Source: Nymphaea colorata (Eukaryota; Streptophyta; Magnoliopsida; Nymphaeales; Nymphaeaceae). Taken from it: a stretch of DNA of 64,000 bases. How positions within the stretch are numbered: the first letter of the stretch is position 1; each line of letters opens with the position of its first letter. Where the stretch lies: the NCBI RefSeq assembly GCF_008831285.2, contig NC_045138.2, positions 15,202,571-15,266,570 of the forward strand, in the 5' to 3' direction. Position numbers and translations under genes: made by a program. Of the stretch, positions 1-55,610 are shown piece after piece. Under the pieces are notes generated by a model that did not search any database, had not been told where the DNA came from, and was given only the letters and a program-made list of their open reading frames with translations.

Positions 1-1242
1 AGTGTTTCTTTGGCCCGATCCCAGTTTCCTCTCAAAGCCACTTAATTTAATTGGGGTTCGGACTCGGGTCAATTATCCGATTATATCGGAACCGTTGACG
101 TTAGAAGGGCCAACGTCGTTTTTCTGGGAAAGCAGGGGACCCAAAGTAAACGTGCGATAAAACGAGTCACGATGCCAATGAAAGCATGAAGACGAAGGTA
201 ACGAGAGAGAGAGAGAGACCAGCTGGAAGTGTCGGCGTGCGTGGCACGGCTCGGTCCATTAGAGGACGCCATTAAAGTGCACGAGCCAATGACATCAAGA
301 TCGATCTCTCTCTCTCTCTTAATGAGAGGTAAGGATCTGCCTTTCCTTCTCTGAAGAAGTCATCCTCTTGAGTCTCAGTGGCTAAGCAAAAGGGAAGGCA
401 GAACGTTCTGCTTCTCTCGCGCCGCCGTTTGGTAGGATCTCAAGGAAGAGAGGAAAAATTGTCTTTCAGCCAGAAGGTTAGAGGAGGGGCTCGACCGTCG
501 CTCTTAGAAAAAGGAAAGGATCGGAGGAATGCGAAGGAAATTAAATCGCTTTCCTTCTTCGTGTCTCTGAGGAAACGAGATTGCTTTTCGAGAGGGAATT
601 TGTCGATTCAAGCTGTTGTTGTCTAGTCTCTGTGTTTTTGCGGCGATAAGTTTGCGTTTGTGTCATGAATTGACTGGCTCCTACTGTCAACGATTGAGTT
701 TCTGGAAGGAGTTTTGAAGAGTTCTGGAGATTTTGAGGGAGCTTGTGGTTGTAGGCGAGGAGCTCACCGTCTGGGTGTTTTGTCTTTTTTTTTTCTGTTG
801 TAAGGATTCAGGCGACCAGGTCGTCCCGGGAATTTGAACTTTTGACGATGACAATGACGAACTCTTGAGAGTTTTTGAAAGATTAAATTGAGGTTTTCCC
901 ATCAAGGAATTGATTATTTAGGTCGTTTTTGTGAATCCAGTGAGTCTCGGAGGGAGGGGAGGGATTATTTTTCCCACAGTCCGGAGTGGGGTGGCTCTGG
1001 CGTATTTTATTGTTATTAGTGCTTGCGTCAAGATTTCGTTTAATTACTCCGTTTTTCGGCAAACGTTTCGGTTAGAAAGTGGTGTAATCATATTGAAGAT
1101 CCAGCATCTCATACAACGTGTAGCTTCAAGTATTTCCTATGGAAATCCTGCTTTCTCAACGACAACTTGAAGAAGTCCAGTCATAATCTCGGTAGGGAAT
1201 CGTCTTTTAGCTGATTTTTGGGTTTGCTGGCTTGCCGGCATT
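1..1242 (+). other. Upstream region and probable 5' UTR of the NEK kinase gene
   Basis: No convincing coding sequence. A (GA)n run lies at 203-218 and a (CT)n run near 306-320; such GA/CT tracts are common in plant core promoters and leaders. The region from about 330 onward is pyrimidine and G/T rich and may be leader sequence, possibly with a leader intron, but I cannot place the transcription start. Short open frames here show no family resemblance. Confidence 0.5.
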
Positions 1243-4200
1243 ATGGAATCACGAATGGATCAGTATGAGGTAATGGAACGGATAGGCAGGGGAGCATTTG
1301 GTGCAGCAATCCTTGTAAATCACAAGGCAGAGAAGCAGAAGTAAGTGCTCTCCGTTTCCTATTCTATTTTTTTCTGTCTTGGATTATAATTTTCGTCTTT
1401 ACTCTAACCGGTGCTTCTACCTTTAAAATTCAGGTATGTTCTTAAAAAGATACGACTGGCACGACAAACTGAACGTTGCAGGAGATCCGCTCACCAGGAG
1501 GTAAGGCATCATATTATTAGGTACTGGTGGCTATTTTGGTTGATCGTTGTCCTTGATTTCAACACCGCGCATGGTTGCCATTTACTTGCTGCAGATGGCA
1601 CTTATTGCACGGATTCAGCATCCTTACATTGTAGAATTCAAGGAGGCATGGGTGGAGAAGGTATAAATACATTTTGAACTCCAGGCGGCTCATAACTTAA
1701 TGAGTAGATTCTTCTTCTTATGTGCGTCTCGCTTCATAGATGGTTTGTCAGTTCGTTGATCGTTTATGCTCACATGGACCCTGGGGCTATAAAGTGATAA
1801 CTTTGAGCAATAGCGAAATCAACTTAGCTGACCTGTAGTTGGTAGACTATGCAATACGGGTGGCTGCTCTGCTTGGAGCCAAGCCCGAAGTGTCAGGCTC
1901 ATTAACTTCAGGTTCTAGTGTTCCTGTAGTTACCCTAATTATAGCAAAAAAAACTACAGAGTGCTGATTTTTCCGGCATAAACTGATCAATTGGTTTCAT
2001 CTTGTCTATTACCAGTTTGAGGATAAGCTATATATAGTAGTAGTGACGGCCTTTCAGTGGTTGGCACTGATTTCCTTCTGCAAACAGTTCAAGATAGTGA
2101 CTTATATCGGTATCCTTCTCCTGCAATCAATGGAAAAGTTCATCGTTTTGGCTTTTGGAAACATATTAATTTTTAGGTTGACATAGTCGTACTGCTTATA
2201 ATGTTTTGTCCTTTTCTTGTACATCAATTGAACTCTTTAGGAATAACTTATGTGAGCTTATATGTGACATAGGGTTGCTACGTGTGCATTATCACAGGCT
2301 ATTGTGAAGGTGGAGACATGTAAGTGCCACTTCTTACCAGAAATGGTTGCTCAATACTCATACCACTGAAATGACTTGCTACTTCATGAGAAGTCGTTCT
2401 TAGCATTATTATTTGCTTGTTTTTAGGGCGGAGTTAATGAAGAAATCAAATGGTGACTTATTCCCAGAGGAGGTATACCCTTCTTGATTTAGCCAGGGAT
2501 ATCAATGTTGATCAGATTGGCATTTAATTGTTTTATGCTTGGTTCTTGCATTTATCACTTCCTAGTTGCCATTCTCAATTTGTCATGCTAAGTGTTTTGT
2601 CAACACTGTCCAGAAACTGTGCAAATGGTTTACGCAACTCTTATTGGCGGTGGAGTACTTACATTCAAACTTTGTCCTGCATAGGGATCTCAAGGTTGGT
2701 TTCTGGTAATTAGATTCCTAAAATTTGATTTCTGCTAGAGTGCTTCTTCTTGTTTACCAACTTGCGTACTCACATGAATCTGATCACATTGCCTCTTGAT
2801 GTGATAGTGTCACCTCATTTTTGAAGGAGCATCAGAAGGTTTTAATAGGAAAGCTTTCTGTCGGCATAACCATAAATGGAAGGAATTGAAACTGCTCTAA
2901 ACTGTGTTTCGAACTTCAGAAATATCTTGGGGAAATCATGTGAGGATACACAAAGTTGTTGGGATTGGAACACAATCTTTCATTTGTTCAAATAACTTCC
3001 AACTGTCAATAACTCCAGGAAGTTGCTTTTGACTTTCTTATTCCTAAAAATTGGCTATATTGTGGGATCGCCTGGCATAAATACAAGCATGTTCCACCCT
3101 TAGATAATTATGAACACATTTTAAGCAAACTAACTAAAAGCTTTCATATGCTCTTTTTTTCGTATTAATTTAAGGAAACTGACTAAAAGCTTTTATGTGC
3201 TTTTTTTATTTATTTAAAATGTTTGGCTTTGGAATCGATTTAAGACTTTAAGTATGAAGATGTACAGAACGAATTTGGCAAGAATACATCAAAGCAAATT
3301 TCTCTCGGGTACATTTGCATGGTCCCACTCACTTGGAAACATCATCTCAAGTTATATGGTGCCTTATATGATATGCATCCACCTTGGTTGATTGCAGTTT
3401 GAAAACCATCATCATCATTAGCAACAATGATGTACCCAAATGTTTCAAGGTATGCATTTTCAAAGTTAGTCCTACACTCCTACATGAAAGGAGAAAAGTG
3501 CTTTTATCTTGCGCTCTTTACGGTTATCTGACCCATGTGAATGACATATAAGTGAATGAGATAAAAAAAGATTAGTTCACCACTTTCAATTTGTGTTTCA
3601 AAATGTTTGAACTTTTGATGTTCTAAAATTTTGATAGTCTGGCACAGCTCATGGTGCTGATTGCCAGTCTCAGTGGAAGCTCACATGCTCCTAGGATAAA
3701 TAAGGAAAGTGAATGTTCTAATGACATGGACTATAAGAATTTTATATCTACATTTGTTCCTATATCGGATACCTGAGCTGCTACTTGCATGAGCCTGTCT
3801 TTAGAAGCTGCATTACTAATTTATTCACTTATTTGTGCATTGAAAGTATAAAATCTGATTCCTTTTAACATTGCCTTGTAGTGCTCCAATATATTCCTCA
3901 CTAAGGAACATGATGTTCGTCTTGGTAAGTGCTTCTACAACAATGGCAAAGATTGCTTTCACATATCTGCAATTCTAAGTTGTCGGTGGAATTGGGTATT
4001 CTTTATCTTACCTTCTTCCCATTTGCAGGTGACTTTGGACTTGCTAAAACTTTAAAGGCAGACGATTTGGCATCTTCTGTATGTCATTTGCTCTTGATTT
4101 TGTTTTTTTAGTTGACCTCAATTCAGCAGACTGTTAATATGTATCTTTCTTCTGTTCATTATTTTTCTCTCACTGAATCAGTGGGACAGTATCCTTTAAT

Positions 4201-7200
4201 TTGTTCCTTAGTATACTCTATTTCAGATTTTTGTGTGTACGAACTTATGTAAATATGTTAGAGGTATTAGAGGTAAATATATGCCTGCGCCATAAGTCAA
4301 GTAACAAGCATTGAAAGATGTCACAGATACAGGCATCACCTTGAAATTATTGTTCTTCATATTCGGAAGTTTTATCTTTTATGTGTGCTATTGTCCGTGA
4401 TAAAGATGCATAGGTACATCCTTTTTCGATGAGTAGGACATCCCTTCATACGCATTAACTTATTTTTTCCTTCTTAGTTGCTTGGTCTCTGAGCCTTTTG
4501 AGTCTACAAAATTTCGCCTGTGTATGATGTCCTTGCATTTGCTATGATAAAATTATGCAATTCCGGTTCTCCAGTTGATCTTTGATTTCTCTGGTGGTTT
4601 GACCTATTTGACATGTGCTTATATGACTCTTTAAAGACAATACTTTATTATTGGTTTTTTCTCTGTGGCACTTATGATATTGATTCTCTAATGTAATATT
4701 AATCCTGGCTTTGTACCTTTAAGAAACATTTACCACATTACTAATTAATTCTTTTGTTTCAACTTTCAAGTTGGTAATAAATGGAAGGAAACGTTGGTAG
4801 CTGATGACACCTTTTTTCTTTCTTTTTTTTCTCTTTTAATAATTTCTGCAGGTAGTGGGAACTCCTAATTACATGTGTCCAGAGCTTTTGGCAGACATTC
4901 CATATGGTTTTAAATCTGATATTTGGTCTCTAGGTGCTCTCTCTCTCTCTCCATGTGCATGTGTATGTATGTGTGTTCCATTGTTATGAGCTTATCTTTT
5001 ACTATGGTATTTGAAATTGGATTTCATGTCGTCTCACAGGCTGCTGTATGTATGAGATTGCTGCACATCGTCCAGCATTTAAAGCTTTTGTAAGTCTTTC
5101 TATCATATACCTGTGCAACGGGCTATAACCAATAAATATGATATATTTCTAGGACACTCAATAGTTTTCTTTCCTGGAGAAATAAACTTCAAATGAAGTA
5201 GGCTGAAAATGAAATAAACTATCAAGAAAATGTTCTTGAAATTGTCTTGGGTTTAACAAAGAATAGCCTGCTTCAGGCATGTAAATACACAACTTGACTG
5301 CAAAATACACTTCAAAAATTTTCCTCAAATGCCAGACATGTAAGAAGATCTGCACATTGTGTTCACTATTCCTTGGTGAAACATAGTGCTGTATTTCTCG
5401 TCGGTGAACGATAACTGTCACTTAGAGAAACTTCAAGTTTCAATAGTGGTGATCTAGCTTCTTCCTAAATTTGATATTTTTGTCATATATGTCTCTAATT
5501 GTGTTCCTATTCATCTTTAGGATATGGCTGGGCTTATTAGCAAAATAAATCGTTCCTCAATTGGTCCACTGCCGCCATGTTATTCTTCTTCTTTGTAAGT
5601 ATGTAGAGCCTTATGTCTTTTGCTGCCCTCTTTGATTCTCAGGATTAGAGTATTGGTTTTAGTCATTAGCTTCAAACACGACCTAAAAAACACAAATAGT
5701 TTGAAAGAGGCCTTTCTTACTTGATGTGTTGACGTGAAATCATGTTCCCATTTTCTTTAAGTCATTTTTCTGGTGTCATTTGGTATTCATGATGCCAAAG
5801 TCCACAAAGTCATCCACATTTCAAGTGTAATCCCACTTATTCAAAAAGTTTGGGGCTTAAGCTTTTGTTTATTTTGTCCTCAAAAATTTTGCATTTCTGT
5901 GGACTGATTCAGTCCATGCAAGACTCTATCCATGCTAGAATGGATGACTTTGCACAAACTCTGGTAAGCACTCATCAAAGTCATGCATGTGCCTTTTCTG
6001 TATGTGCATGAAATTTCTGTGCCGGACGTGAATTTTATGGGGCTAAACATTATGTTGAAGTTATATTTGAAGACTAGGTGAGAGAAAAGAAAAACCTTCG
6101 GCCAACATAGTATTACATTAAAAGGGATTGACAATACTGCATTTAGCCCTTCAAATGAGTGTATTTACACTGCATTAACATGAACCAATGACCTCTAGTT
6201 TCACTATTTTTGTCCTTAAGGTAGCTCTATCTTGACTTAGCTGTTTTTACCACAGCCAAAAGTATCGTGATATTTTCGAAATATCACAGTATTAACGAGA
6301 AAAATGATAAAAATGCGTCTTTTTGAAAAAAAACGTGAAAAATGTATTTTATCAGATTCTTATAGCATTTCTTTTCTGTCCTTTTCCTATTCTTCCATTT
6401 TTCTGTTCTTTAACGTTAGTGACATCATGGATTCACCTTTAACTTGAACTGAATTATTTAGTATCATTCTTACAGTGGTCATTATATTATTTTCTTATTT
6501 GTCTTATAACTTTTAGGATTTTTTTTTTCATTTTTCAAAAATTTGCCAAGATTTTCCCGAAATGTTCTTGAGAAAAGCAACTTTGCCAAAAAAGACCTGA
6601 GAAAAACCTTGCTGCTACAAACCTGAGAATGATATTTGTGGCTATGGTTTTAGCCCTCAAATTACTTTAATCAAATAGTCTGATTTGGATTGGCAATTTT
6701 CAATTATTCTATGAACCACATGCCCCAAGGAAATGTAACTAGGCCAGTTTCTTGTCAGTCGTCTTCTTCTACATGGATGAGGTGCCAAAAAAAAAAATTA
6801 TACTTTCGTCCACAGCGATACTTTCCACTTTTTCATGTTCTTTCGGTACCTTTCACATTTTATCTTTCAAGAATGATAGAAAAAAGTGCTTTGAAACATC
6901 CCTTGACGGGTTTTTCTTCATCCTACTGCATCTTGTATGGCTGCAAAAACCTAACAAAAACTTTTTTTTTTCTCCTTATGCATTGCTCAATAGCCACCAC
7001 ATCGCTTGTTTGTATTGCCTGGATTCTGTTATATAGAGCAGATGAGAAGAATTACTGTGTGCTATAAAATGCAGGAAAACACTTATCAAGAGTATGCTGA
7101 GAAAAAATCCAGAGTATCGACCTAGTGTAAGTTCTAGCCTCCGAGTGTTTCACCGAAGCCATATTCATTTTCTTTTATTTTTGTAATAGGCAATTAATTT

Positions 7201-10200
7201 GACAGGCATCGGAAATTTTGAGGCATCCTTTTTTGCAACCATATGTTGATCAATGTCGCGCATCCATGGATACTATAGCATCCGCTGCACCCGAGAAGCC
7301 CATGCGCAGTATCCATCACAATCACAGCATGGCCAGAAGTGAAAATAGTAGCAAATGTAGCAGTGACAGGGAGAGTGTACTCTCTAGTGGAAAAGGCAGT
7401 AACGGTCTCGAGCTTGATGTCCAGAAGGCTAATGAAACAACAAGAAGCTCAAATAGTGATTTGGTGGACTGTGCTAACAGCTGCACTCATTCACCAGTCG
7501 AAACATCTCATTTATCAAATGATAAATCTGTTTCAAGCATCAAGTGTACAGAAGAAAAGCCACATGTGACCAGTGCTTGTCATGATGGTCACAAACGTAA
7601 ACTTGATGTAAAACCACCAACTGTAAAGAGCATATTAGTTGCTTTAAAAGAGGAAGCCAAGTCTAGGGAGAGCAGTTCACCTCTTAGAAGCAGTCGTTCC
7701 AAGATCAATCACTGTCTTGGGATTGATGGCCACAAGGCTAATGGGACAGCAAGAGATGTAATTGATGATCTAATGGACTCCGCTAGCAGCTGCACTAAAT
7801 CACCAGTCAGGTCATCTCGTTCGTCAAAAGAAAGTTCTGCCCCAAGCGTCAGAACTACAGAAGAAAGGCAATCCGGAACCAAGTCTCCTTGTGATGATAA
7901 CAAAACGAAAGCTGATGAAAAGCCAACAAAAAATGTGAAGACCATATTGGTTGCTTTGAAGGAGCAGGCCAGGGCTAGGGAAAATAGCTCACCTGTTAGA
8001 AGCAGTCGTCCCAAGAGCAGTGGAGTACCAAACCAAAAGGATAATGATGCACTATCTACTGCTTCCAAGACTTCTGCTTCAACGCCTTGCTCACCAATGC
8101 ATAGTAATGATAAGGCTGTTGCTGTATCTAAAGCTAATGCTGATCCAGCTAAAAAGACACCAACGGTGCACTCATTGAAGCATGCGGTGAGAGGATAAGT
8201 TTTTCTTATTTTGACTTCTCTGACTTTGACTTTTGTTTGTGTATCTTGGACAATATGCCGCTGTTGGGCTAGCATGTTAACCTTCAACGGGGAAGTCTCA
8301 TCATCCCATCATTATTGTTTTTTGGTTTCCTCTTCACAGTTGCCTGCATTGGATGGATCGCCTAGGAGTAAAGCAAGAGTTGAAGGAGCGCGATTTTCTG
8401 AACCCTCAAAGCATGTTACGGAAGATGCATTTTCTGGAAAGCCAAGTCAGCAGCATCCGTTTCCCAGGTTGGCAAAAAAACCATTTCCTGTACAGATGAA
8501 AGATGCCGAAGTTGGTGTAGAGGTGGTGGAACAACCAATAGGTGAGATTGACCAAAACATTGAGAGAGCTCCACTGAAATCTAGCAGTAAAGCAAGAGTT
8601 GAAGGAGTGCGATTGTCTGAACCCTCAAAGCATGTTACGGATGACGCACTTTCTGGAAACCCAAGTCAACAGCATCCGTTTCCCAGGTTGGCAAAAAAAC
8701 CATTTTCTGTACAGACGAAAGATGCCGAAGTTGGTGTAGAGGTGGTGGAACAGGCAATAGGTGAGATTGACCAAGACATTGAGAGAGCTCCACTGAAATC
8801 TAGCAGTAAAGCAAGAGTTGAAGGAGTGCGATTGTCTGAACCCTCAAAGCTTGTCAGGGAAGATGCACTTTCTGGAAACCCAAGTCAACAGCATCCGTTT
8901 CCCAGGTTGGCAAAAAAACCATTTCCTGTACAGATGAAAGATGCCGAAGTTGGTGTAGAGGTGGTGGAGCAACCAATAAGTGAGATTGACCAAGACGTTG
9001 AGAGGGCTCCACTGAAATCTAGTAGTAAAGCAAGAGTTGAAGGAGTGCGATTGTCTGAACCCTCAAAGCATGTTACGGATGACGCACTTTCTGGAAACCC
9101 AAGTCAACAGCATCCGTTTCCCAGGTTGGCAAAAAAACCATTTTCTGTACAGACGAAAGATGCCGAAGTTGGTGTAGAGGTGGTGGAACAGGCAATAGGT
9201 GAGATTGACCAAGACATTGAGAGAGCTCCACTGAAATCTAGCAGTAAAGCAAGAGTTGAAGGAGTGCGATTGTCTGAACCCTCACAGCATGTTACACAAG
9301 ATGCACTTTCTGGGAAGCCAAGTCAACAGCATCCGTTTCCGAGGTCGGCAAAAAAACCATTTCCTGTACAGATGAAAGATGCCGAAGCCGGTGTAGAGGT
9401 GGTGGAGCAACCAATAGGTGAGATCGACCAAGACGTTGAGAAAGGTTCAAGGAAATCTAGCAGACATACACGAACAGATGGCCTAAGTTCCAAATCGTCA
9501 TGTGGGAGCGAGCAGGATTTTGAATTTTCTGCAGTGGTTTCAAGCATTACAAGAGGAAAGGAGCAACGACAAGTACAGAAAATGTCAAGTTACAGCGATC
9601 ACCTCTTAAAAGAAAGTTCTCCTACGCTCCCGTGTCTTGAAGTACAAACTCTTAATAGTTGTTTGAAATTAACTTCTCAGCCAGTGATGCAAGATTTGGA
9701 GCTTGGCACAAAGAGTGACTGGAGCAACCCATGTTGTATGCCTCCTGTTCCTGATTATGAAGTTCACTTTCGAAGCAAAATTCCTGAACCAGATCCTTCT
9801 GCCTATTCTACCTCATCTACAGCATTTCCCGGGTCTCAATCAGTAGACAGAGCCGCGCACATGGATAAGTCTTTCTCGACAAGAACCAGCGAACCACGAA
9901 AAGATGGAGGCCTGCAAGATGGTGTCAGCATCAATAATGAAGTGAAGCCTTTCTTTACCCCTACTATCGAACAGCCTAACACTTCTCCTGGAATGGAACC
10001 CTCTGCAACCAAACTTAGTGAACAAGGCAAAAAAGCAGAGTCTGCATCTGGTAATCTTAATCTACCGACTGGGGATGACAAATTCACTGTAACAGAACTT
10101 CGCTCCTCTCTCCCCGATATGGCTTCTTGCTCCATGCCAACTACAACAACAATTCTACATCCTGAGAATGAAAGTAATATGCCTGAGAAGCCATTAACAC

Positions 10201-10640
10201 ATCCTGGTCCAGCCGTTGATGATGTCGTACATGTGATAAGGCACAGCAGTTTTCGAGTAGGAAATGAGCAACAAACGTTAGAACCAGTGGATCAGATTAT
10301 GGACGTAGGGAAACTAATTAATGTGGTGAGTGAGGACACGCAAGCCAAATCTGTGAAACCAAGTCTGGCTCACGACGCGGGAAACAAAGATGAGATTCCA
10401 GACAAGGACGAGAATCCAGAGAGGGAACCATTGGATGTTAATTCATACAGACAGAGAGCAGATGCACTTGAAGGGCTCCTGGAGCTCTCTGCAGACCTGC
10501 TACAGCAGAAGCGTCTTGACGAGCTTGCGGTGGTCCTAAGACCATTTGGGAAGGACAAGGTTTCCCCAAGAGAGACAGCTATATGGTTGGCAAAAAGCTT
10601 AAAGGGGATGAATGAGGGGACTCCTGGACGTCATGCTTGA
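1243..10640 (+). CDS. NEK6: NIMA-related serine/threonine kinase, plant NEK5/6 (IBO1-like) clade, with expanded repeat tail
   Basis: Fourteen coding exons with GT-AG borders: 1243-1340, 1434-1500, 1595-1660, 2273-2319, 2427-2472, 2614-2694, 3882-3924, 4029-4078, 4852-4933, 5040-5089, 5521-5594, 7075-7126, 7206-8186, 8340-10640. They sum to 4038 nt, giving 1345 aa in one frame. The start [15 protein letters not shown] is the hallmark plant NEK N-terminus. The kinase domain (about residues 8-262) has glycine loop GRGAFG (15-20), lysine K37, HRD (131-133), DFG (151-153) and CPE (175-177), so it looks active. The tail contains two repeat blocks, then a GDDKFTV motif and a conserved C-terminal block (about 1280-1335: [27 protein letters not shown]) typical of long NEK5/6 proteins. 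Arabidopsis At3g44200 (called NEK6/IBO1 or NEK5) is about 956 aa, so this one is unusually long. Known relatives phosphorylate tubulin and limit ectopic outgrowth; the role here is inferred. Large introns: 2695-3881, 4079-4851, 5595-7074. Confidence 0.93.
5595..7074 (+). other. NEK intron 11, with an A/T-rich repeat-like patch
   Basis: The intron separates the exons ending 5594 and starting 7075. A patch at about 6250-6600 contains a near-palindromic stretch around TATTTTCGAAATATCAC and poly-A/T runs, suggesting an old non-coding insertion. The overlapping short open frames at 6690-7067 lie wholly inside the intron, show no family resemblance, and are not called as genes. Confidence 0.5.
7413..8010 (+). 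repeat. Old in-frame tandem duplication in NEK exon 13 (two units of about 310 bp)
   Basis: Two diverged units, roughly 7413-7700 and 7722-8010, offset by 309-312 bp. Each runs from a KAN(E/G)T stretch through an SCT(H/K)SPV segment to a conserved end, VK(S/T)ILVALKE followed by RSSR. Related NEK5/6 proteins have, as I recall, a single such VLKEEKARE segment, so this looks like a lineage-specific duplication. The many differences make it older than the exon 14 repeats. Confidence 0.8.
8367..9461 (+). repeat. Five tandem 219-bp (73-codon) repeats in NEK exon 14
   Basis: Units start at 8367, 8586, 8805, 9024 and 9243, every one exactly 219 bp, and encode about residues 589-953. The unit carries [25 protein letters not shown] and GVEVVEQ segments and ends in KSS. 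Units 2 and 4 look identical at DNA level; units 3 and 5 resemble each other less well. Unit 1 continues from upstream [11 protein letters not shown], which resembles the conserved linker of NEK5/6 proteins, so the repeat probably grew from an ancestral single segment. Confidence 0.95.
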
Positions 10641-10778
10641 CTTAACGGTGGACTACAAGTCCATGATCGGGTTTCCATTCCAATAGAAGGTCTTCTTTCT
10701 TAGCCTGCCAAGTGTCAAGTGGTCTACACTTGACTCCACAGGTTTTCTTTTCACCCAAGCTTCCCAGTAATCGGCCAT

Positions 10779-11150
10779 TCCTGGATATTGAGTTTCTTAG
10801 GTTATGCTTTTCTTGGTTATTCGTTCGCTAGCTTGAGAAATTGAAGGCCTGGAAGTGTGGGTCACATGATATGGTCCACTGTCTTCTCAAGGCTTAGAGC
10901 TGGGTTGCTAACTTTGGGAAAGTCAAGCACCTGCGAACGTATTTCTGCCTTGTGAATTGAGTTAACGGTGGCTTCCAGGATACTGAGTTTCTTAGGTTAT
11001 GATTCTCTTGGTCGTTCGTCCTCTAACTTAAGAAATCGAAAGCCTGGAAGTGTGGTTCACATGATATGGTCCAATGTCTTTTCATGGCTTAGAGCTGGAC
11101 TGCCAACTTTGGGAAAGTTAAGCATCTGAGAACATCTTTCTGCCTTCTGA
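10779..11150 (+). repeat. Imperfect 195-bp tandem duplication downstream of NEK
   Basis: The segments starting near 10779 and 10975 share long matches (GAGTTTCTTAGGTTATG, GCCTGGAAGTGTGG, TCACATGATATGGTCCA, GGCTTAGAGCTGG) at a 195-bp offset. They lie just after the stop codon, so they are probably in the 3' UTR or close downstream. A TTAACGGTGG motif at 10642 recurs near 10961, so the duplicated unit may originally have begun at the stop codon. Confidence 0.85.
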
Positions 11151-12492
11151 AAGTCGGTAGCAGGTTTGGACCAGTTGCTGACTTTCATACGGTACTGTAT
11201 TTTTATTTTCTCAAGAGAGACTCTGAGACACGAGAAGCTTCTCATGTTTGCAAATAACTTGAACAAGTGCTGCAAACATGTGGAAGTGTACAGTTTGCGC
11301 TACACAACCAGAAGAACTTGAGCTCGAGTTACAGGGGTTGGGGAAAATCCCTTAATTTCCTCGTTATTTTCTGTTGCTTTCTTTTTTTCAGCTTGACCAG
11401 ATTTGCACAGTGGTTTCTGTCTTCGTACAATCTTTCAATTCTTTGATTTCAGCTGCAAGCTCAATTTCTGGTTTCCCATTTGTCAGTTCTTGACACAATG
11501 TAGAAAATGGTAGTTGTGCCCTGAACAACATGAATTAATGTATTGCCAGTTCATAACTTGGGCACCATTTTCTTCATCATATTGAACCTGAAAGCTTGCT
11601 CTTTTCTCACACAAAAAACTGAAGTTCCTCACCTCTAATGTTAAAAGGATCACTATTAAAATCACCGCTTTATTATGAATCAGTATTCTTCGGTGGTACA
11701 TTAAGTTGCGGGATGGTGTACATTTGTTAGAGCACACCTTGTTCGTTTCCTTTGTTTTCTTACTTGCGCCTTAACGTGTCTTGCTCTGTGCATTATGCCA
11801 TGGCGGACCAATTACCAGAAAAAAGAGGCAAACAGAAGTTATTAAATATTGTCACTTCACATTTCAAAAATTGCTCATCACTATTGTTGTCTCTGTAGCT
11901 ACTATATATACATATTGCCAAATAGATATGTTCGTAACTCAGTTACATCTTACTCTTTACAATCGGAGCACATCAAGAGTCCAGAAAATCCTGACAAAGC
12001 TACCTTGAGAAGTACAGAAATTTCACCATCTGCCAATTGCCTTATCAAAGGCCTTAACCTCAACCACAACAGGAGCAAGATAAAGAGAGTTGAATGAAGG
12101 GAGAAACTTGCCAATATCCTGACCGTGCCTTTGTGAAAGTTCAACAATTTTTCTGCAGACCTAACATGGAGCTTAAGGGATGTTGACCAAGATATATTGC
12201 GCAATTAATGATCAAGCATTGAATGGAAGATGAAGCAGAAAAGGTGAAAAGTGTTTCCAGGTCCATGAAGTGACGAAGATGCTTGAAAAAAAGTAGGGGT
12301 ATGGAATGACCAAAATACCATTTTTTAGAAAAGGAAAACCAGTTTTGTTGGGGCGTTTCACTCACACAACTATTCAATTCAACTGCACAACTATGATCCA
12401 GCTGATACCATTAACTCCGTGAGGCATTATTTAGTAAGACAAGGCTTGTAGCATGTATGATATGCAAAAAACCAAAGGCTCACAATGTAGAG

Positions 12493-13208: not shown

Positions 13209-13457
13209 TCATTCGTCAGAAATTGCCCCTTTTTTCTTCGTCTCAGAAACTGTTTGACGCACAAACTGTCCTTTCAGCCGTGGCCGTTGCTCTGCTAATT
13301 TCTTCCTGCTGTAGTATCTGACCTGTGGAACATGATTATCGGGCTTCAGGTGTACTGGAAAACAAGGTACTATATTTTCCACCTATTAAAGTTGTACAAC
13401 TGGTGCAACCATTTTCTTTGTGAAAGGTCAAAAGAAAGTACGACGATCGAGATGCTC

Positions 13458-13504
<47 letters not shown>

Positions 13505-16500
13505 CGTGCAAACAAGAGAGAGAGAGTAAGAAAGAGAGAGAGCTTACCCTCTTCTCAAAGCATCTGTTTTTTCTTTTTAGGCGAAATTTAGTCAAGGCAG
13601 CTTCTCGATGTGTACTACGATCATGATCCATCATCGTACTGTTACTGGCTTCAAAGATATCAACATTATTAGTTCCAAAATTGGCACCATTGTCAGCAGC
13701 TGCACTTCCATCTTCAACATTATGATTACTTCCGTAGTCAGTGGGATCACTTCTGCTACTTGCATTTCGAGCAAGACCAGTGGCAGATGAAGGTATTCCG
13801 CCCACAACAATTGCAGAGTCTTGAGCAACCTCTTGTTCCACTAGCCCTTGGTTATGGTCATCTGAATGATGCTCATGTTCAGCGTGCAGCTCGCCATAAT
13901 AAGCATGCTTTACATCATATTTCTCCATTACCTTTTTATCTATAGGATGATGCCATGCCAAACCAGATTCTGAATAAAAAATCGGCTGCAACAGAGCACC
14001 ATAGCTGGTACACAAGCCGTTGAAAGGAATTGCTCCAACTGGAATAGGCAAGGGTACCACACCAACTTGAGCATGAGGGCATACTACTTCTTTGGTTATT
14101 CTGCAACTAGAATCAGAGTCATCAACTGAAGGTCCAACCACACAGAAGCCTAAATTTTCCCCTTTACCATGTTGACAAGATGCCACAGCTTCACATGCAC
14201 TTCCTTCAGGCGATTTGATGATTGCTTTACAAGCAAAATCAACAGGACCAACATTAGCATCAAATTGTCTGTCACTGTCACAATTCCGCATGTAACCATG
14301 ATGATTTCCTTTATCTCCATACCTTAGAAAAAAAAAGGTACTCAGAAATGAAATATAGATGTGATACCTCCAAGATAAAAACAGCAAGCAAGGAAGAAAT
14401 GGTAGCTTCATCGTGTTAAGCATTTCTGTTAAACCAAGAACAGTTCCTATTATCAGAAACTCATAAATAAGTTAGCAAACACTGAGAAGCCAGAAATGGA
14501 CACTATACAAGTTGAAAGCAGCAAGCAGGAGACAAGAAATGGTAGCTTGATCATGTTAAGCACTTCTCTTAACCAGAATAGTTCCTATTACAGGAAATTC
14601 ACAAATAATAAGTTAGCAAACAGTGAGAAGCCGTGATTGGGCTTTAGGTACTGATAACCCAAAAAAACGTTTATCAGTTTATACAATATTAAAGCAATAT
14701 TGTCTCACATTAATGTTGGCTCATACCTTTTCTTTTGAATATAACTGAATCTTGTTATAGATAAGTTGCTCACATGAAGTACACAGAATCACCACAGATA
14801 AAAAGCAAAATAGATGTGCAAAGTCTCTTATCAACCTTCGGATCAAGGATCATCAAATGACTAGTCCATGCCTTAAAATTGATGGGGCCTATAAAAATGA
14901 CTAGCCAACTGACTTGCTGGTAACAGTATGGTCATTGATCAACTAGTTTTTTACTAGGTTTAAGAATCTTTTGGGAACCTTTTCTTGCGAAGTTTCTGTT
15001 TAATATTTTTGCAACCTTTTAATAGGAAGGGAGGAACTCTGCTCTCTCTTTCTTTCTATCTCTCTCTTTTCTTTTAGGCTTTTAGCTTATTTTTTCTCTT
15101 TTCTGTTTAGATTTTTGTTCTGAATTTCTGCTGTGGCTCTCTTTCTTTTCGTTGAAAAATTACAGAAAGTGTTTAATACTTGCGAAAATAACAAACCACT
15201 ACTCAATGTTTAAGTTAAAAACGGGTGCTCAACTTTTGAAAGAAACTCTAAGAGCTGCCAACAAACAGAAAATTTAGTCTTTGATAAAATGACAAAAACT
15301 CTTACAAATCATTTGTTCCCTCGACCAACAAAAGATACCTTTTGTCTCTAGAATGGGTATCTTTATCATGTTATATCAAAAATAATGTTCCCTTTTCGTT
15401 AGCTCCCTGCTAACTGAAACTCACGCACTCAGAACAGAAGCCCAGCCTCTGCGAAGGAAGTATGATCGTATTTCCATATTAGGGTTAACTCCCTCATTAC
15501 AACTATAAGTATGGAATAACAGGGTCGGTATTGACCTAATCTACTGACCCAAGCTGATAAAAACCCGACTCACATAGTCAGTGTCTAACATCCACCCCCC
15601 CAACCCTTAAGAGACACCTTTGTCCACAAGGTGTGAGAGTGGGGAACCTAGCTTGAATATCTTCTGCTGCCTCCCACGTTGTTGGAATGTTGTCATGATC
15701 TGTCCATTATATTAGCCATTCTGTCACCCGTGTCCCTGCCTTCTTGAGCTTGCGACTGCCCAGACACCTGTAAGGTTGCCTGGGACCTGGTTCCTCAATT
15801 GTTGATGCAGAACTAGCTTCCTGCTCACTAGCAGTGGTGGGCAGGGTTTCAATTTGGACACATGGAAGACTGGGTGAATGGAACTTCCTGTTGGTAACTG
15901 CAAGTCATAAGCCACTTCTCCAATGCATAGGTTAATTCTGTAAGGGCCTACATAACGAGAAACCAGTTTATTGTACCCTTTTAGTAGGTAAATCTTTGAG
16001 AATTCCTTTCAAAAGTTAATTGCCTATTTGTCAAGTTTTAAGGGCATGTTTGGTGACACCCTTAAATGCTGATTTGGAGACAAAATAGTGTTTCGCCTGC
16101 AAAACATTGTTTAAGGTGTGTTTGGGTGACAGTCAAAACTAGGAAAACCAAGTTTTGACAAAATGAAAATTTCAAAAGGGAGTGAATGAAACGTTGTTTA
16201 GGTCTTGTCACCAAAGACATAAACCAGGTTTTAAAAATAAAAACTGGTTAGAAAACTTGGTTTTCCCAAAACCAGGTTTTTAGGGTGTTATCAAAACACA
16301 ACTTTAAGCAGTTATTTGTTATTTACCCAGACTGTATGTTCCTTTTTGTAAATTTTTTCTTCTTTCCTTTTCCGGGTTCTAACTTATTTTACTGCATCAT
16401 TTAGCGTGTTATTGTTGCAATTTTTTTTGCATGTTCAGCATTTTCTTGGCTCACCCTTTTTCAGTGCAGCAGTCAAGGATTCAAAGGAACTAACTATTGA

Positions 16501-19500
16501 ACACTGTAAATAACCAATGTATATTGTTGTTCATTAGTGTCTTTTACTTCTTCCGACATTTTAAGTATTGTGTTTCTATTTTTTGTTTTACTGATTTTCT
16601 TTTTGAAGACTGATTTCACCACCTCGGACTGACTAGTTCCAAGCAGTGTCTTAAGGAGCTTGACCAACTTGTATTAGACTTTGCATTTCAATTACTTGGA
16701 TGATAGTCCGTCTTCCTTTGAAGGAATCTAACCACCAACTATTAGATATAACTATTCAAATTTTTGTAACCTTGTTTGTCTATTTTTTACTAGGTTTGGT
16801 CATACTTAAATATAAAAAAGGATCATTTTCAATATTGTGAAGTGAAATGTTGAAAGTTCATGGAGGTAAAGACAGTTTAAAGACAAGTATGACATGTAGG
16901 ATGGTTAAGCAACTCACTAAGCATGATTCATATTTCATAACATCCTTTACTTTTGAAGATAAGATCTATGTAGATGAAAAGTGTAGGACCCATCATCATG
17001 GTTATCACCTATCAGTCTAAGCAATAGAGTGGTCATGTAATATCCTGCATCATATTGTTCCTCTGGTTAAATTTAGGAAAGTCCCAACAATTTAAAAAAA
17101 AAAAATTAAAAGAATGGAAAGAGTCAATAAAAAGAAAGAAATGAATTTACTTACCTAATAAAGGTACATTAACAAAAGTTGCTGATTGATGTGTACCAAA
17201 AGAGTCACACCTCCTATGTCAGGATTTTTTTTATTTAGTTTCTCCATGTAATTCTCTCCAGCCTATAAGCTGGATGAAAGTATGGTTCACCAGATAATAA
17301 TGCTGGGAACAGAATATGGTTTGTCAACATGAAAGAAATAAGTTCTCTACTAGATCGTTCTGCTCAAAAAGGAAAGCAAAGGCCAGGGAAGAGATCAAAT
17401 GAGTGATGCTTTCAAAATTGGAACTAGAGGTACCTAAGAAGAGAAATATCTCGAGCAGTAAGAACCATATCTGCTCATTGATGTGAAAATTATAATTAGC
17501 AATTTCAAAGACAGCTTTGTGTTGAATGGGTCATCTTAACTCACCCAGCTATTTTGGCATGCTCTAAACTAAGTGGCTAGAAAAACAGGAGATATATCCA
17601 CCACAAGTCTGGATAGACAGAAGGCAAACATGGAAGTGGCACCAATTTGAGCAGAACATACACACAAGAGCCCTTTAAAATGTTAGCATTAATTCGTAGA
17701 AGACATCCTGGCAGAAAGGGAAGCCTAAATGGAAAAGATATTCCATGATTTATCGTGTCTTACCAGAAAGAGGTAAGCTTTCCTTTGGTTGTTCCGCAGG
17801 GACAGGCATTTCATCTCAGGAGTCAGGATATCTTTGGAAACATGTATTGTGCATAACTGAGGATACAATTATTCCATTCACATTGCGCATCTAAAGAGAT
17901 ATGCACAAAGCAAGCTGGGGTTAGGTACGAGTCCTACCAGATTGTTACCACAAGACCAGCCCGACTTATTGATTTCTTGACTAGCTTCATCCTGAAAGTT
18001 TTCTCTGGCACAAACAAAATATGTATTTTCCTTTTTTTAACACATCATGTCCACTCTTAATCTTACTTAGATAATCCGCAAGCCGCACAACAAATAGACT
18101 GAAGTTTGATGTGAGAATGCTTCTTAAAGGCTGAAGTGCAATGCTTTTGTTTTCTATGTAAGTGACTCAAAACGAAAACAAAAAAGATTGAGACAAGAGA
18201 ACAGAACTGACCTAGAAAATGCAGAGGCATTGGAATGGTTTAGGACATGCTTGTGTTGAAACTCTTGCTCATCTAAGCTACCAAAAAGCGGCCTTCTGAG
18301 GGGAAGTTCCCAACATGGCTTGGCAACAACCTTAGGCGCATTTTCATTCTGACTCAAGAACTGTTCTTCTCCAACCAGAAGCCCAGCCACACGAGAAACA
18401 TTATCCGGGCCCTCGCACTCGTGTTTTTGTTGACCAGTAGTTCCAACAACAAAATCAATGACTTCCTTTGAGCATCCATCATTAAGATCATTGTCGAATT
18501 CAGGATCATTAGAACCCTCTTTACAGCTGGTGGAACCTGCATTCTCCAGTATAAATGCAGATTCATCACCAGATTTGCTTCCTTGGACCTGTTTAGAGGA
18601 TGAAGTTGCTTGACTCGGGAGTGACACTTTTTGTTCAAATGATTTCGACGTATCTGCAAGACAGGAACTGTTGATGTACAATAGTCTGCAAACCAGGAGA
18701 GCACTTTTTCCTTTCTACCAAACAAAATGAAGAATAAGAATATACCATCATCTACCAAATGAATTGTTGAAGCTGCATATTCCTTTTCCGATTTCAAATC
18801 AGGTTTACTTGCATGTAGCTGTGCTTCATCATGGAGAGACTTGTCCTCTGTCTCATGAGGCAAACCTTCAAGTCCTCTGCTTGGAGTGTCAGATTGCCCA
18901 CAAGAACTCTTGGAAAATCATGGGATGAATAAGTCAACGAAAAGAACATGGCACCTCCGGAAAAATCTTATACTACTTATGAAATACAATTAATCAAAAT
19001 TGAACAATGTTGAGCAAAAATAAGCAAGAGGCTGACCGCTGAAACTCGAGAATAGCTACTGAGATAGTTTCTCATAAACATATCATGTCTATCATGTTCA
19101 CACATTTTTTAAGGACAAAGTTGCACCGTATACAACTCATGTCCTCGGTCTTAACAAGCACAAAAGATAACTCAAACGATCTTGGGAAAACATATATTTT
19201 CAAACTGCTAGCACACAGAAAATAAAAGAATATTATCTATTTGATGACTTTAGGAATATCACCTGAGTATCACTCCCCTTCTCACAGCTTTGTCCGGTTT
19301 TCAGGCTGTTATCAGAATTTATACTCATACGGTTACTAGCTATGTTATTGTCCGAAATCGCACCGATCCTGCCCGGGCCAGGAATTTCATTGCCAAAGCA
19401 ATTTCCGCTACTACCAGACTGAGATGGATGCAATTTGCCACTAATCAATTCAAGGTGACATTTATTTGACAGTCGAGGTCATCAATAAGAAATTCAATAT

Positions 19501-20304
19501 GCATGAGTAAAGATCTTACACATCGTCTCCTCCACACGTGCTGCCACAAATTCCTTAGCTCATTCTTGCGCACGGGCTTCACGAGGAAATCGGCAGCACC
19601 TTTGAGCATACAGTTGAAGACTATGCCCATCGAGTCGTGCGAGGACATCACTACCGATTCCCCAAACAATCCAAGAGAAACGCACAAATTTTATCAAAAA
19701 TATTCTCGTGCAATCAATCATAGAATCTAACTCTGACAAAATCAAATGCTTACTGATAACGGGCAAATTCTTGCAGACATCGTTGCCCATAATTTTGGAT
19801 AGGAGGTCGATTCCGGATAGCGATGGCGTCATAACCTCAGTGAGCACAAGATCGACCTTGTAATGCCCCTCCTTCAAGATTGTCCACGCTCTGAGCCCGT
19901 CGGCCACTGCCACGACTGCTCCAAGATCCATAAAATCACTCAAATTCTGACGCGTTCGGGAAACCTTAAAGCCCATTACAATCTCATAGGCTCCACATAA
20001 CGACGCATAGACAGGATCCTAGATATGAGTGAGACAGAGAAAGAGATGGACAGAGAAAGAGACCTTGGTAGCTGCATTTTTTTAGGAGGACGGTGACGAT
20101 TTGGCGCGTGGAATCGTCATGCTCGACGAGCAGGACCCTGAGGAACCGCCATGGAAGGAAGCGATCCCACCGAATGATCCGCCCCCCCGCCCGCGGCGCG
20201 GCCCCGGTGCTCGGCGCCGCCACAGGCCGGGCGGCCTCCTCCGTCGCCGACGTTCCGGTGACATCCGGCGGCTCCGCCGTATCCTCCCCGGCCCTACGGT
20301 CCAT
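13209..20304 (-). CDS. PRR95: Pseudo-response regulator, PRR5/9 (PRR95/PRR59) clade, circadian clock repressor
   Basis: Eight coding exons on the minus strand: 20304-20064, 19918-19754, 19650-19520, 19418-19263, 18908-18746, 18653-18212, 14322-13548, 13322-13209. They total 2187 nt, giving 728 aa in one frame. The pseudo-receiver spans about residues 54-170 ([21 protein letters not shown] with Glu where a true receiver has the phospho-accepting Asp; MMSSHDSMG; the [17 protein letters not shown] end). The CCT domain spans 672-714 ([27 protein letters not shown]) and is split by the last intron. The middle has the KGSDTQSSC and SAFSRY motifs usual for PRRs. A PRR5/9 assignment fits [13 protein letters not shown] and the CCT better than PRR3/7 or TOC1. 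Relatives repress CCA1/LHY-class genes in the nucleus by time of day. Intron 7 (14323-18211) is 3.9 kb and full of insertions. The clade is fairly sure, the exact orthologue is not. Confidence 0.92.
13458..13504. repeat. (TA)n-(GA)n compound microsatellite in the last PRR intron
   Basis: A run of TA dinucleotides from about 13458 to 13482 passes directly into GA dinucleotides to about 13504. It lies in the 225-bp intron that splits the CCT domain, 44 bp from the donor site of the exon ending at 13548. Length is likely to vary between individuals. Confidence 0.95.
14383..14632. repeat. 137-bp imperfect tandem duplication in PRR intron 7
   Basis: Segments 14383-14491 and 14520-14632 share GAAATGGTAGCTT, CAGTTCCTATTA-like and GTTAGCAAAC...GAGAAGCC blocks at an offset of about 137 bp with scattered changes and small gaps. 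It is intronic, near the acceptor side of the exon starting at 14322. Confidence 0.85.
15480..15980 (-). mobile_element. Relic of a Ty3/gypsy LTR retrotransposon inside PRR intron 7
   Basis: Read on the minus strand, about 15730-15915 resembles the integrase C-terminal end of Ty3/gypsy polyproteins ([11 protein letters not shown]), followed by a degraded chromodomain-side region. A purine-rich tract ends near 15595, and a TG-initiated segment that could be the edge of an LTR follows. Only this end of the element is visible; it is broken, with several breaks, and looks old. It lies in the same orientation as the host gene. The outer limits are approximate. Confidence 0.7.
16110..16308. mobile_element. 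MITE-like element with terminal inverted repeats in PRR intron 7
   Basis: The left end (from 16116, GTGTGTTTGGGTGAC) and the reverse complement of the right end (to 16302, GTTGTGTTTTGATAAC) are similar. Subterminal GGAAAACCAAGTTTT is also inverted between the two sides (near 16142 and 16254). TTTAAG flanks both ends (16110-16115 and 16303-16308) as a possible target-site duplication. Length is about 190 bp with no coding capacity, as in plant MITEs. The superfamily is uncertain. Confidence 0.6.
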
Positions 20305-43914: not shown

Positions 43915-44006
43915 TCCTCTGCCTATCTTGCTCTCATTCATAAGCTCTACCATACAATTGACTTCTACTCCCAGATCTCATTTCTGCATCTTCAAACCAA
44001 GCAAAG

Positions 44007-44699
44007 ATGCTGAAAGAGCTCCTTCCGGTCACAAGCATATCATCGAAAAAGGGCCGAAACCATGGCAAGGATGCTCCTCTTCCACAGCCCTTCCCCAGCC
44101 ACAGTTCATGTTGGTGGAACTGCATCATGCTCTTGGCATCAATGGCCATACTGGCAATGTTGGTGGCACTGACCAAGATCACTCTTCAACATAACCCACA
44201 TAAACTCCTCCCTAGCTTCTTGGTTACCTCTGCTCATGTTGATCCTTTCAAAATTACAGACAATTATCTAACAGCAAGATGGAATGTGTCGGTCTTTGTT
44301 GATAATGGATATGGAAGAACAGGCATCTGCTATGACATGCTGTCTGCTACCATGTTCTATGAAGAGAAGGCTCTAGCGGTGAGCTTGGTGGCTCCCTTCT
44401 ACCAGAGGAAGAACAGCGTTGCAAATTTGACAGTGAGTTTTGCAGCAGAGTCATGGCGTCTCGAAGAGGATTTGGCTGGTAAGATGCTGAATTGTTTGAT
44501 GGATGGGATGCTGGAGTTCAGTTTACAGTTCGTTGCTCGAGTTCGATTTGGTGATAATCGGGATGCAGAGCCTAGTGAAGTCACAGTCTCATGTGATGGC
44601 ATAAAGCTCGATCGGGGTCTGGGGAGTCTTTCAGAGCCATCGACATGCAAGGTGCAGGAAGGACTTACTCTTCTTCTTCCCTTCTGGTTGCACATCTAG
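44007..44699 (+). CDS. LEA_2 / NHL-like membrane protein, divergent
   Basis: Single exon, 230 aa. There is a hydrophilic N-terminus, a membrane span at about residues 39-58 (IMLLASMAILAMLVALTKI), then a recognisable LEA_2 frame: NYLTARWNVSVFV, GRTGICYDMLSATMFYEEKALAVS, APFYQRKNSVANLTVSF. The usual asparagine-rich NPN motif is replaced by VDNGYGR. It is the first plus-strand NHL locus but differs clearly from the three at 47-55 kb in both coding and upstream sequence, so it is an older relative. The start chosen is the first ATG after the TATA-like box. Function is not inferable beyond the family (plasma-membrane NHL proteins linked to defence or stress). Confidence 0.75.
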   Translation: MLKELLPVTSISSKKGRNHGKDAPLPQPFPSHSSCWWNCIMLLASMAILAMLVALTKITLQHNPHKLLPSFLVTSAHVDPFKITDNYLTARWNVSVFVDNGYGRTGICYDMLSATMFYEEKALAVSLVAPFYQRKNSVANLTVSFAAESWRLEEDLAGKMLNCLMDGMLEFSLQFVARVRFGDNRDAEPSEVTVSCDGIKLDRGLGSLSEPSTCKVQEGLTLLLPFWLHI

Positions 44700-45434
44700 G
44701 ATAGTCTTGATGCTGCCATTATCAAGATCATATAGAAAAGTAATTATCAGAGTATAACTACTAGTCAGTCGATCTGTGAGTTGATAGGAGCTTCAGCCGG
44801 AGACAAGGAAATGATTATTTTTGTTAGGAGGAGGTTCCTGTTATATATTGTGCCATCTCGCTCTTCTTCTCTCTGTTTGTTCTTTATAGTTCCTATCAAT
44901 AAGTTAGCCGATAATTGTGAAGGACACACTCACAAGTTTTGTCCTAGATAAGCTAAATGTCACAACATTCAGATAACGTGGGGTTTTAAACTAGCATTGG
45001 TCCAGAATAAAGGGGATTGATTCGCAGATTCAATCCAAGTAGTCAAAAGAAGCCCCCTACAATGACAAAAATGTAAAGAAAAAACGAAAAATACTTTTTT
45101 TTTTTCCGGAACTATCTTTGCGAAGATAGAAAAAAAAAATCCGCAAACTAAAAAGTAAACTAGTCGTGCCGAATTCGATCTTCGCACATTGAGTCGACTT
45201 TGCATCAGGTTCAAGATATAATTTGGCTTCTTTTAAATGTAAATGTATGGACCACATTTTGGCATATGGCGCATATACAGCTGTAACGCTCAGACAGCTT
45301 CACGCTTTTCTATAGACTAACTCTAGTAGATCCAAGCATATCTTTTCTTTTGTTGTAAAGAAAAACTGGCGATTCGAAAGAGGTCAAAACTGCTTTGTTT
45401 TTTCCTTATTACTTTCGTGTTGAGAGTATTTTGA

Positions 45435-45567
45435 GACTGGGTAGAAAGTATGACACTTGTCAATTAGAGTGCTACCATTTACAGTTTAAAAAAAAAGACT
45501 TGGGTAGAAAGCATGACACTTGTCAATTAGAGTGCAATGTATCTATCATTTACAGTTTAAAAAAAAT
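45435..45567. repeat. Tandem duplication of about 62 bp
   Basis: The segment with GGGTAGAAAG, ATGACACTTGTCAATTAGAG and ATTTACAGTTTAAAAAAAA at 45435-45496 recurs at 45497-45567 with a small insertion (ATGTATCT). Each copy ends in an A-run, so slippage or an A-tailed insertion is possible. Confidence 0.9.
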
Positions 45568-45718
45568 AGCACCCACAAAAAAAAAAAAAAAAAAAACTGA
45601 GCATCTCAAAATTTGAAAATAAGGCAAAAATACTATTTAAGGTTCCGATCCAAATGTACTTGACTCGAGCCAAACCCACCAAGATAATCTACTCGTGCAA
45701 AGGCTACCTGGCTACGTC

Positions 45719-45845
45719 ATCAGTGGTGGAGCTAGGTGCCTAACCGTGCAGGCAGCTGCCAACACAAATCCATATCCATTCAATTTCAACAGCGAGCAAA
45801 AATTTTATAGCTGCCTCTCTACTAAAAATTTCTGACTCCGTCTCC
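45719..45845. mobile_element. Short element-like segment with CAGTGGTGGAGCTAGG end
   Basis: CAGTGGTGGAGCTAGG near 45719 matches the well-known CAGTGGCGGAGC-type terminus of many plant non-autonomous elements. The far side (AATTTCTGACTCCGTC near 45825) looks like a decayed inverted partner. A second terminus-like sequence, AGTGGTGGAGTGAGAAC, occurs near 52640. Length about 130 bp, non-coding. Confidence 0.4.
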
Positions 45846-46689
45846 GATCGAGATGGCGCACCTACTTTCGTGTACGCCCATTACTTATTGATAACTATGA
45901 AATAACTGGCTTCATAAAGCTATGGAATCAATACTAGGACATTTGCTTTATGAGTGAGCATGTTCCGGGCTCATCTGGATCCAACCTCCATCGATCATGA
46001 TACGTTGGGAGAGAAGGCAGTGAAGGAGCCAGATTCATGACCCTGAGAAATGGTTGTAAGATTCATTGCTTCTGTTCGTTCCGGGTCAATTATTTCAAGG
46101 CCAAGGAAACGGGATGGTCCAATATGACCACTTGTGCATAATATCATAGCAAGGGGCTCTGTACCTTGCTAAAGCTTATCATTTAATTGTGAGTTGCTGG
46201 CTCATGTTATGGATATGCAACTCGCATTCCTACCATCATGCTTGTGTGCCTAAAAGGAAGTCGGACGTCTTAAGTTAGTACGTACAAATTCGATTCGAAA
46301 TAGGGAACTTAATCGATTGGATTTGAATCAGATGTATTCTTTAGCGCATTTGTTTTAGCATATATTCACATATTCAAATTCAAATATGATTGAAAAAGTA
46401 TATATGTATAGGTTTACAATATCTGAACACAAATTTTCAATCCAAATATTCTTAAATTCACATCCAAATCCAAATCTCACTTTTTTAACTGAATCCAAAC
46501 TGCAATAGAATATGTCAAGGACCAACTTTTAACTGGGTTGAAGTTAGGTATATGTTTTTTTTATATATTTTTTTTATTTAAAGCTAGTTAAATCTGAATC
46601 TGATCAGATGTTTACTTAAGCCTGAACAGTGGCAGTGGAATTGTGATGTGCATGCCTTCTTAAACCCAGGTTGCAACTAAACGCCTTGC

Positions 46690-47266
46690 GCTAGTTATAA
46701 TCTTTTTCATAAAAAAAAATGACGCAAATCCAATTGAAGATTTCCCGTTCCAACAACATGAACCTTATTTATTTGGCAAATGGTGATTTTGATTTATTTA
46801 CCATAAAAAGAAAGTACATTTTCCAGGTTAGCATCCGTCCATTTCAGTTCCTTTTTTCCCTTTAAACGTCATTTCATGATTTCAGCTATAATTTTGGGAG
46901 CAACTATTTCAAGATCTGGATATATAACTACGGTCTTGGAACCTTCCTCGTTTGATTGCGAACCGGTGGTTTTCTTTCTCCCTTTCTGACGAATCTAAAG
47001 TTTCCCCAATTTTTGGGAAAGAAGGATGTTCCGTCTCTCCCATTGTAGGATATCCCAAGTCCACCAATTTTCAGAAAATCGGACTGTTTGTCTCTCCCTT
47101 CTAGCGACCACAGTGGGAGAAGAAGAGCCAACGGCTTGCTCATAGCGGTCTAAATTTCCTTGCATCCCAGTTTCTGCTTCTTCTTCCTCTCAAATAAGGA
47201 GGCCATACAACTTTTCGCCGGAAAAGCGCTTCTCTCGCGCTTCCGACTGCCGGAGAAACCAAAAAG
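46690..47266 (+). promoter_or_regulatory. Upstream block shared with two other NHL genes (copy A)
   Basis: In order it contains an ATGAACCTTATTTATTTGGC-like block, CATTTTCCAGG, TCATTTCA, CAATTTTTGGGAAA and a TTCTTCCTCTCAA...CGCGCTTCC leader before the ATG at 47267. The same modules in the same order precede the genes at 49855 and 54429. A TATA-like TATATAACTA lies at 46921. Conservation of non-coding DNA between paralogues can be simple shared ancestry or retained regulation. Confidence 0.65.
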
Positions 47267-49434: not shown

Positions 49435-49854
49435 ATCTTGAATCTTAACGCGCTTTCTGCCATAAAGATATAACATTTTCCAGGTTGGGATCGCCTCCTT
49501 TTTAGGCCTCCTTCCGACGCCTTCGCTACCAAGAGAAACATCATTTCAAGATATCAGTTATTAGGATTTTTGGAGAAACTACGATCTGTGGATCTCGATA
49601 ACTATGGTTTTAGGACCTTCTTTGTTTGATGGTTTTCTGTTTTTCTCCTTTTCTAGGAAATTTACTGTTACCTATTTTTGGGAAACGGAAACCGAGATAT
49701 AGTTCCCCTCCCTCTGCTCTCTGCTGTTCTTAAATTTCCTATATTCCTTGCCTCCTTGGGGCCCAGTTTCCGCTTGTTCTTCCTCTCAAAAAAAGAGGGG
49801 GACATACAGCTTTTGGCCGGGAAAGGGCTCCCCGGCGGGCGGAGAAGCAGAAAG
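49435..49854 (+). promoter_or_regulatory. Upstream block shared with two other NHL genes (copy B)
   Basis: It begins with CTTAACGCGCTTTCTGCCATAA, then ACATTTTCCAGGTTGGGATC, CATCATTTCAAGAT, CTCCTTTTCTAGGAAATT and a leader with GTTCTTCCTCTC before the ATG at 49855. The GCGCTTTCTG(C/T)CATAA start is closest to copy C (54193 onward), and the leader is closest to copy A. The three genes were therefore duplicated together with 400-550 bp of upstream DNA. Confidence 0.7.

Positions 49855-50879: not shown

Positions 50880-50881
<2 letters not shown>

Positions 50882-50938: not shown

Positions 50939-50939
<1 letters not shown>

Positions 50940-55608: not shown

Positions 55609-55610
<2 letters not shown>

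Follow-up and report, generated by a model that had tools for sequence, protein, structure and literature searches.

How did a plant protein kinase come to carry five in-frame copies of a 73-codon segment in its C-terminal tail, and does the intactness of that array point to selection on the segment itself? The question is raised by a 64,000-bp stretch of the Nymphaea colorata genome (RefSeq assembly GCF_008831285.2, contig NC_045138.2, positions 15,202,571 to 15,266,570; hereafter the window, C1:15202571-15266570), which contains a NEK-type kinase gene with such an array; positions without the C1 prefix count from the first base of the window. A preliminary description of this stretch had reported an exact five-fold 219-bp repeat and had attributed its lack of insertions and deletions (indels) to selection or great youth. 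Comparison with a neighbouring paralogue suggests that, in a tandem pair of NEK genes, one member acquired four additional in-frame copies of the 73-codon segment in its tail.

A five-unit array in the tail of a NEK-type kinase

The kinase gene model is predicted, having been spliced by hand from the genomic sequence alone; all 13 introns are GT-AG and the model has no internal stops. The gene, its domains and the array units are listed here (aa, amino acids; dN/dS, ratio of nonsynonymous to synonymous divergence).

1243..10640, plus strand: NEK-type kinase gene, 14 exons, 1345 aa, predicted by hand splicing
1243-1340, 1434-1500, 1595-1660, 2273-2319, 2427-2472, 2614-2694, 3882-3924, plus strand: exons 1-7
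4029-4078, 4852-4933, 5040-5089, 5521-5594, 7075-7126, 7206-8186, 8340-10640, plus strand: exons 8-14
1264..7235, plus strand: kinase domain, aa 8-262, exons 1-13, Pfam PF00069 (Pkinase), E 2.5e-65
8367..8585, plus strand: array unit 1, from Tandem Repeats Finder and unit alignment
8586..8804, plus strand: array unit 2, identical to unit 4
8805..9023, plus strand: array unit 3, 93.6% identity to units 1, 2 and 4
9024..9242, plus strand: array unit 4, identical to unit 2
9243..9461, plus strand: array unit 5, the most divergent, 89.5-90.4% identity to the other units
10443..10637, plus strand: conserved C-terminal block, aa 1281-1345, with dN/dS 0.04 in a 64-codon comparison with the tandem paralogue

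Tandem Repeats Finder placed the array at 8362-9463 with a period of 219, 5.0 copies, 92% matches, 0% indels and a score of 1896, and the array is far beyond chance expectation. Its five units are all 219 bp long, a multiple of three, and share, without a stop, the reading frame that is open over 8199-10640, as in an in-frame protein tandem repeat; the absence of indels noted previously is therefore borne out. The word exact holds for the length of the units and not for their sequence, since pairwise identity ranges from 89.5 to 100%, only units 2 and 4 are the same, and 34 of the 219 columns vary (10, 9 and 15 at codon positions 1, 2 and 3). The array (aa 589-953) falls entirely within the last exon, between the kinase domain and the conserved block beginning at aa 1281, as the preliminary description had placed it. 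A search of the window for further copies of the unit returned nothing else that was strong, the best remaining match having E 1.6. A viral-contig search gave three pattern matches, none of which was confirmed.

By its sequence, the predicted N-terminal kinase domain is closest to the NEK kinases and belongs among the NIMA-related kinases, in agreement with the class proposed earlier. It carries the catalytic motifs HRDLK (aa 131) and DFG (aa 151), and a search of the PDB returned NEK1 (1.9e-67), NEK2 (1e-50) and NEK7 (about 1e-42) ahead of STK10 (1.4e-39) in the best 60 of 1088 matches. The narrower label of NEK5/6 group, used in the preliminary description, is presumptive. The C-terminal block matched no Pfam family at E 0.01.

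A tandem paralogue with a single unit

The whole genome (407,766,735 bases, 783 contigs) was searched with the protein sequence of the last exon, giving six matches at E up to 10. These comprised the kinase gene itself, a tandem paralogue, and four matches confined to the C-terminal block, two of which were weak (E 0.006 and 0.125). The match in the paralogue lies at C1:15196521-15197939, with 53% identity over query positions 301-765. Matches to the paralogue span from the kinase start at C1:15191530 to the stop at C1:15197942 (loci L015 and L016) on the same strand, and the stop lies 5.9 kb upstream of the ATG of the kinase gene at C1:15203813.

Splicing of the paralogue covered its last two exons. 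Its last exon aligns with both flanks of the array; between them lies a single unit of 71 residues, which differs in length from the array unit by one 1-residue and one 3-residue indel. Tandem Repeats Finder detected no tandem repeat in L015, the 10-kb locus holding most of the paralogue. The two genes thus share the kinase (matched piece by piece), the C-terminal block and a unit at the corresponding position, but differ in that the paralogue has one 71-aa unit against five of 73, and one copy against two of a second repeat in exon 13. A candidate decayed sixth unit at 9462, where 13-15 of 27 bases resemble the unit starts, was rejected because the paralogue has a matching flank beside its single unit.

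Because the tandem paralogue carries one unit, sequence comparison supports a single-unit ancestor of the five-unit gene, as had been supposed; this presence of a single unit in a close relative rests on one relative, and the direction of change is read from one outgroup. Relative to such an ancestor, the four extra units amount to 292 residues, close to the earlier figure of about 290.

The 5' region of the kinase gene (window positions 203-658) matches the 5' region of the paralogue at 67%, and the duplication that produced the gene pair therefore seems to have included upstream sequence.

The second repeat of the tail consists of two copies with a period of 103 codons, both in exon 13:

7407..7709, plus strand: older internal duplication, copy 1, aa 320-420, from self-alignment
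7716..8018, plus strand: older internal duplication, copy 2, aa 423-523, from self-alignment

The self-alignment scored 226, compared with a mean of 46.4, a standard deviation of 8.3 and a maximum of 83 among 200 shuffles, and the motif ILVALKE..R(E)xSSPxRSSR occurs twice in 7407-8018. The same 103-codon stretch is single-copy in the tandem paralogue. The kinase gene thus seems, by comparison of the two sequences, to have expanded its tail twice, once by the 73-codon array and once by the 103-codon duplication.

Age of the array

Synonymous divergence (dS) between distinct units was 0.05-0.17 at kappa 2, and 0.05-0.19 over kappa 1 to 4. Between the two genes, dS was 0.51-0.54 in exon 13 and 0.56 in the C-terminal block, and it reached 0.84 over the remainder of the tail. 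On these values, with unit dS of 0.05-0.17 set against 0.51-0.84 for the gene pair, the array looks much younger than the pair, and the youth suggested in the preliminary description stands in this relative sense. Exchange between units could make the array look younger than its true age. The exon-13 copies differ by dS 0.38, with dN/dS 0.94, and that duplication is accordingly older than the array.

The array could instead be old and inherited by both genes, with the paralogue having shrunk to one unit and concerted evolution having kept the remaining units alike. Polarity from one outgroup gene leaves room for this history, as do the signs of exchange between units described below; it would need two separate losses, however, since the exon-13 repeat, too, occurs only once in the paralogue, and the distinct units are far less different than the two genes. 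We regard an old array as highly improbable.

Signs of exchange between units

The exact match at a lag of 438, which underlies the identity of units 2 and 4, extends over 261 bp. Unit 3, which lies between these two, shows 14 base differences from them and unit 5 shows 23; units 1 and 3 differ at 14 positions and units 3 and 5 at 21. At an age equal to that of the other pairs, units 2 and 4 would show an exact run of 261 bp with P <1e-6. Either a recent exchange between units or an assembly fault made the two alike. A single recent duplication of 438 bp was also considered and was rejected, given that the exact run is 261 bp, that neighbouring pairs are as different as others, and that the second half of such a duplication is therefore missing. 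Conversion, or crossover between unlike alleles, fits the identity better than such a duplication. Column 74 of the unit alignment is in four-gamete conflict with columns 164 and 192, as expected with recombination between units.

The assembly itself could be partly at fault in the number or order of units: the array might have been misjoined or haplotypes mixed within it, and the perfect identity of units 2 and 4 would then be a sign of this. That these two units match while their neighbours differ at 14-21 sites is what such a fault might leave behind, and tandem repeats are known to produce assembly errors (PMC6868369). Units 1, 2, 3 and 5, on the other hand, are mutually distinct, so at least four should be real unless haplotypes were mixed, and the PacBio libraries of Nymphaea colorata, at about 20 kb (PMC7015852), far exceed the 1.1-kb array. 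An artefact is therefore very unlikely.

Selection and the absence of indels

Compared with the paralogue unit over 70 codons, the five units gave dN/dS of 0.92-1.05, with bootstrap intervals of 0.54-1.82 for unit 1, 0.62-1.92 for unit 3 and 0.56-1.59 for unit 5. The corresponding values were 0.49 (0.36-0.64) for the rest of the tail and 0.04 for the C-terminal block. The changes within the array, 12 synonymous and 22 nonsynonymous, do not differ from the outcome of random mutation (P between 0.06 and 0.18 for kappa 1 to 3), under which a stop-free array is also unsurprising (P 0.23-0.28). Strong constraint on the unit was seen neither in dN/dS within the array nor in dN/dS against the paralogue.

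A further duplication, in noncoding sequence, lies just beyond the gene:

10778..11151 (10778-10956 and 10973-11151), plus strand: 195-bp noncoding duplication after the stop codon

Its copies match at 154 of 179 positions (86%) without gaps, and their Kimura two-parameter distance of 0.157 is similar to the dS of the older unit pairs. The 1,960 bp following the stop of the paralogue held no significant match to it. That one gene has three separate tandem duplications within or beside it is a curiosity without explanation.

The lack of indels was rejected as evidence for selection on the unit, because this adjoining noncoding duplication is also free of indels and because the C-terminal block enforces the frame. 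A frameshift in the array would remove the conserved block, with its dN/dS of 0.04, so the array can stay open without any value of the unit itself. Of the two causes offered in the preliminary description, relative youth is thus supported and selection on the unit is not. An indel-free in-frame repeat need not be selected for its own sequence.

Fold and composition of the array

The array matched no Pfam family at the cut-off (eight families fell below E 1) and nothing in the PDB at E 1. A single-sequence AlphaFold2 model, of a type that is often poor, gave a mean predicted local distance difference test score of 40.9, and 348 of the 365 residues scored below 50. The share of disorder-promoting residues is 66% in the array and 49% in the kinase domain. 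All 15 S/TP sites of the protein lie outside the array. Multivalent binding by the array is possible but not supported.

A SKIP tetrapeptide is encoded at 9774-9785, and the aligned stretch of the paralogue is without it; SKIP presumably fits the SxIP motif found in EB1-binding proteins.

Proposed origin of the array

We consider it likely that a young in-frame duplication, followed by unequal recombination, lengthened a probably disordered spacer, the frame being kept by selection on the C-terminus. A short CTAGnAG match is present at both edges of the array and may have seeded the first tandem duplication. Exchange between units, by unequal crossing over or gene conversion, would then have followed, the latest such event yielding the identity of units 2 and 4. 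A period that is a multiple of three, together with the location of the array inside one exon, would keep the frame open, and selection on the C-terminal block would purge frame-breaking changes. The most probable role of the 292 extra residues is to lengthen a flexible spacer that separates the kinase from the C-terminal block, the sequence of the unit itself being near-neutral.

Several observations weigh against this account. The four-gamete conflict sets one column against two, and homoplasy could produce it. The single-sequence fold is weak evidence of disorder, and the charge-hydropathy score of the array, -0.009, lies on the border between order and disorder. Unit dN equals tail dN (Fisher P 1.0) while unit dS is lower (P 0.025), so that unit dN/dS is near 1 partly because unit dS is low. 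Within the array, the point estimates of dN/dS range from 0.46 to 1.07 and are mostly below 1, although every interval includes 1 (bootstrapped for six of the ten unit pairs, the unit-4 pairs duplicating those of unit 2), and mild constraint on the unit sequence is allowed. Finally, the complete lack of indels in the array would have P 0.18, 0.03 and 0.006 at assumed indel-to-substitution ratios of 0.05, 0.1 and 0.15; the noncoding pair gives 0.29, 0.08 and 0.02 at the same ratios.

These within-array ratios also speak for a selected gain of function, in which the units would be binding or phosphorylation modules and five of them would give the tail multivalent contact with microtubules or a partner protein. 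The tail was expanded in frame twice, and four unit junctions carry LKSS, which would fit a phosphorylation preference of NEK kinases. The LxxS/T pattern, however, occurs 26 times across the whole protein, the array is without a known domain or S/TP site, dN/dS between the units and the paralogue unit is near 1, and the paralogue manages with one unit; a gain of this kind seems unlikely. We likewise give little credence to the broader proposal that repeated selected lengthening of the tail (103 codons twice, 73 codons five times) built a multivalent or length-tuned microtubule-targeting arm whose unit number is still changing in populations.

Comparison with known systems

The birth of the array by duplication and unequal recombination is a known type of event, here with a useful outgroup adjoining. 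In-frame tandem duplication with relaxed selection among new copies and homogenised recent copies has been described by Persi, Wolf and Koonin (2016, PMC5120217). The array shares these features, but differs from the repeats covered there in its long 73-aa unit, its five copies, its lack of a recognised domain and its adjoining single-unit sister. Tandem repeats are common in coding sequence, and roughly half of the repeat regions of proteins may be unfolded (PMC6868369).

Arabidopsis NEK6 (IBO1), which is microtubule-associated, shares with the kinase described here an N-terminal NEK-type kinase domain and a long C-terminal tail, and its microtubule localisation is tail-dependent (PMC5552743). 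Our searches of the open-access literature, mostly in the form of listings, found no plant NEK protein for which such a repeat has been described, and so agree with the preliminary description. Two sister kinases standing side by side, one with one unit and the other with five, offer a natural experiment on whether tail length affects cell location or is tolerated.

Other features of the window

Two further groups of sequences were observed:

13428-20018, minus strand: exons similar to those of a pseudo-response regulator
43962-61540, plus strand: group of five LEA_2-similar open stretches

The pseudo-response-regulator-like exons fall below the Pfam cut-offs, at 24.7 bits for the receiver-like part (cut-off 30.2) and 22.6 bits for the CCT-like part (cut-off 28.4). 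Three of the LEA_2-similar stretches are above the Pfam cut-off and two below it, and the group looks like a tandem cluster.
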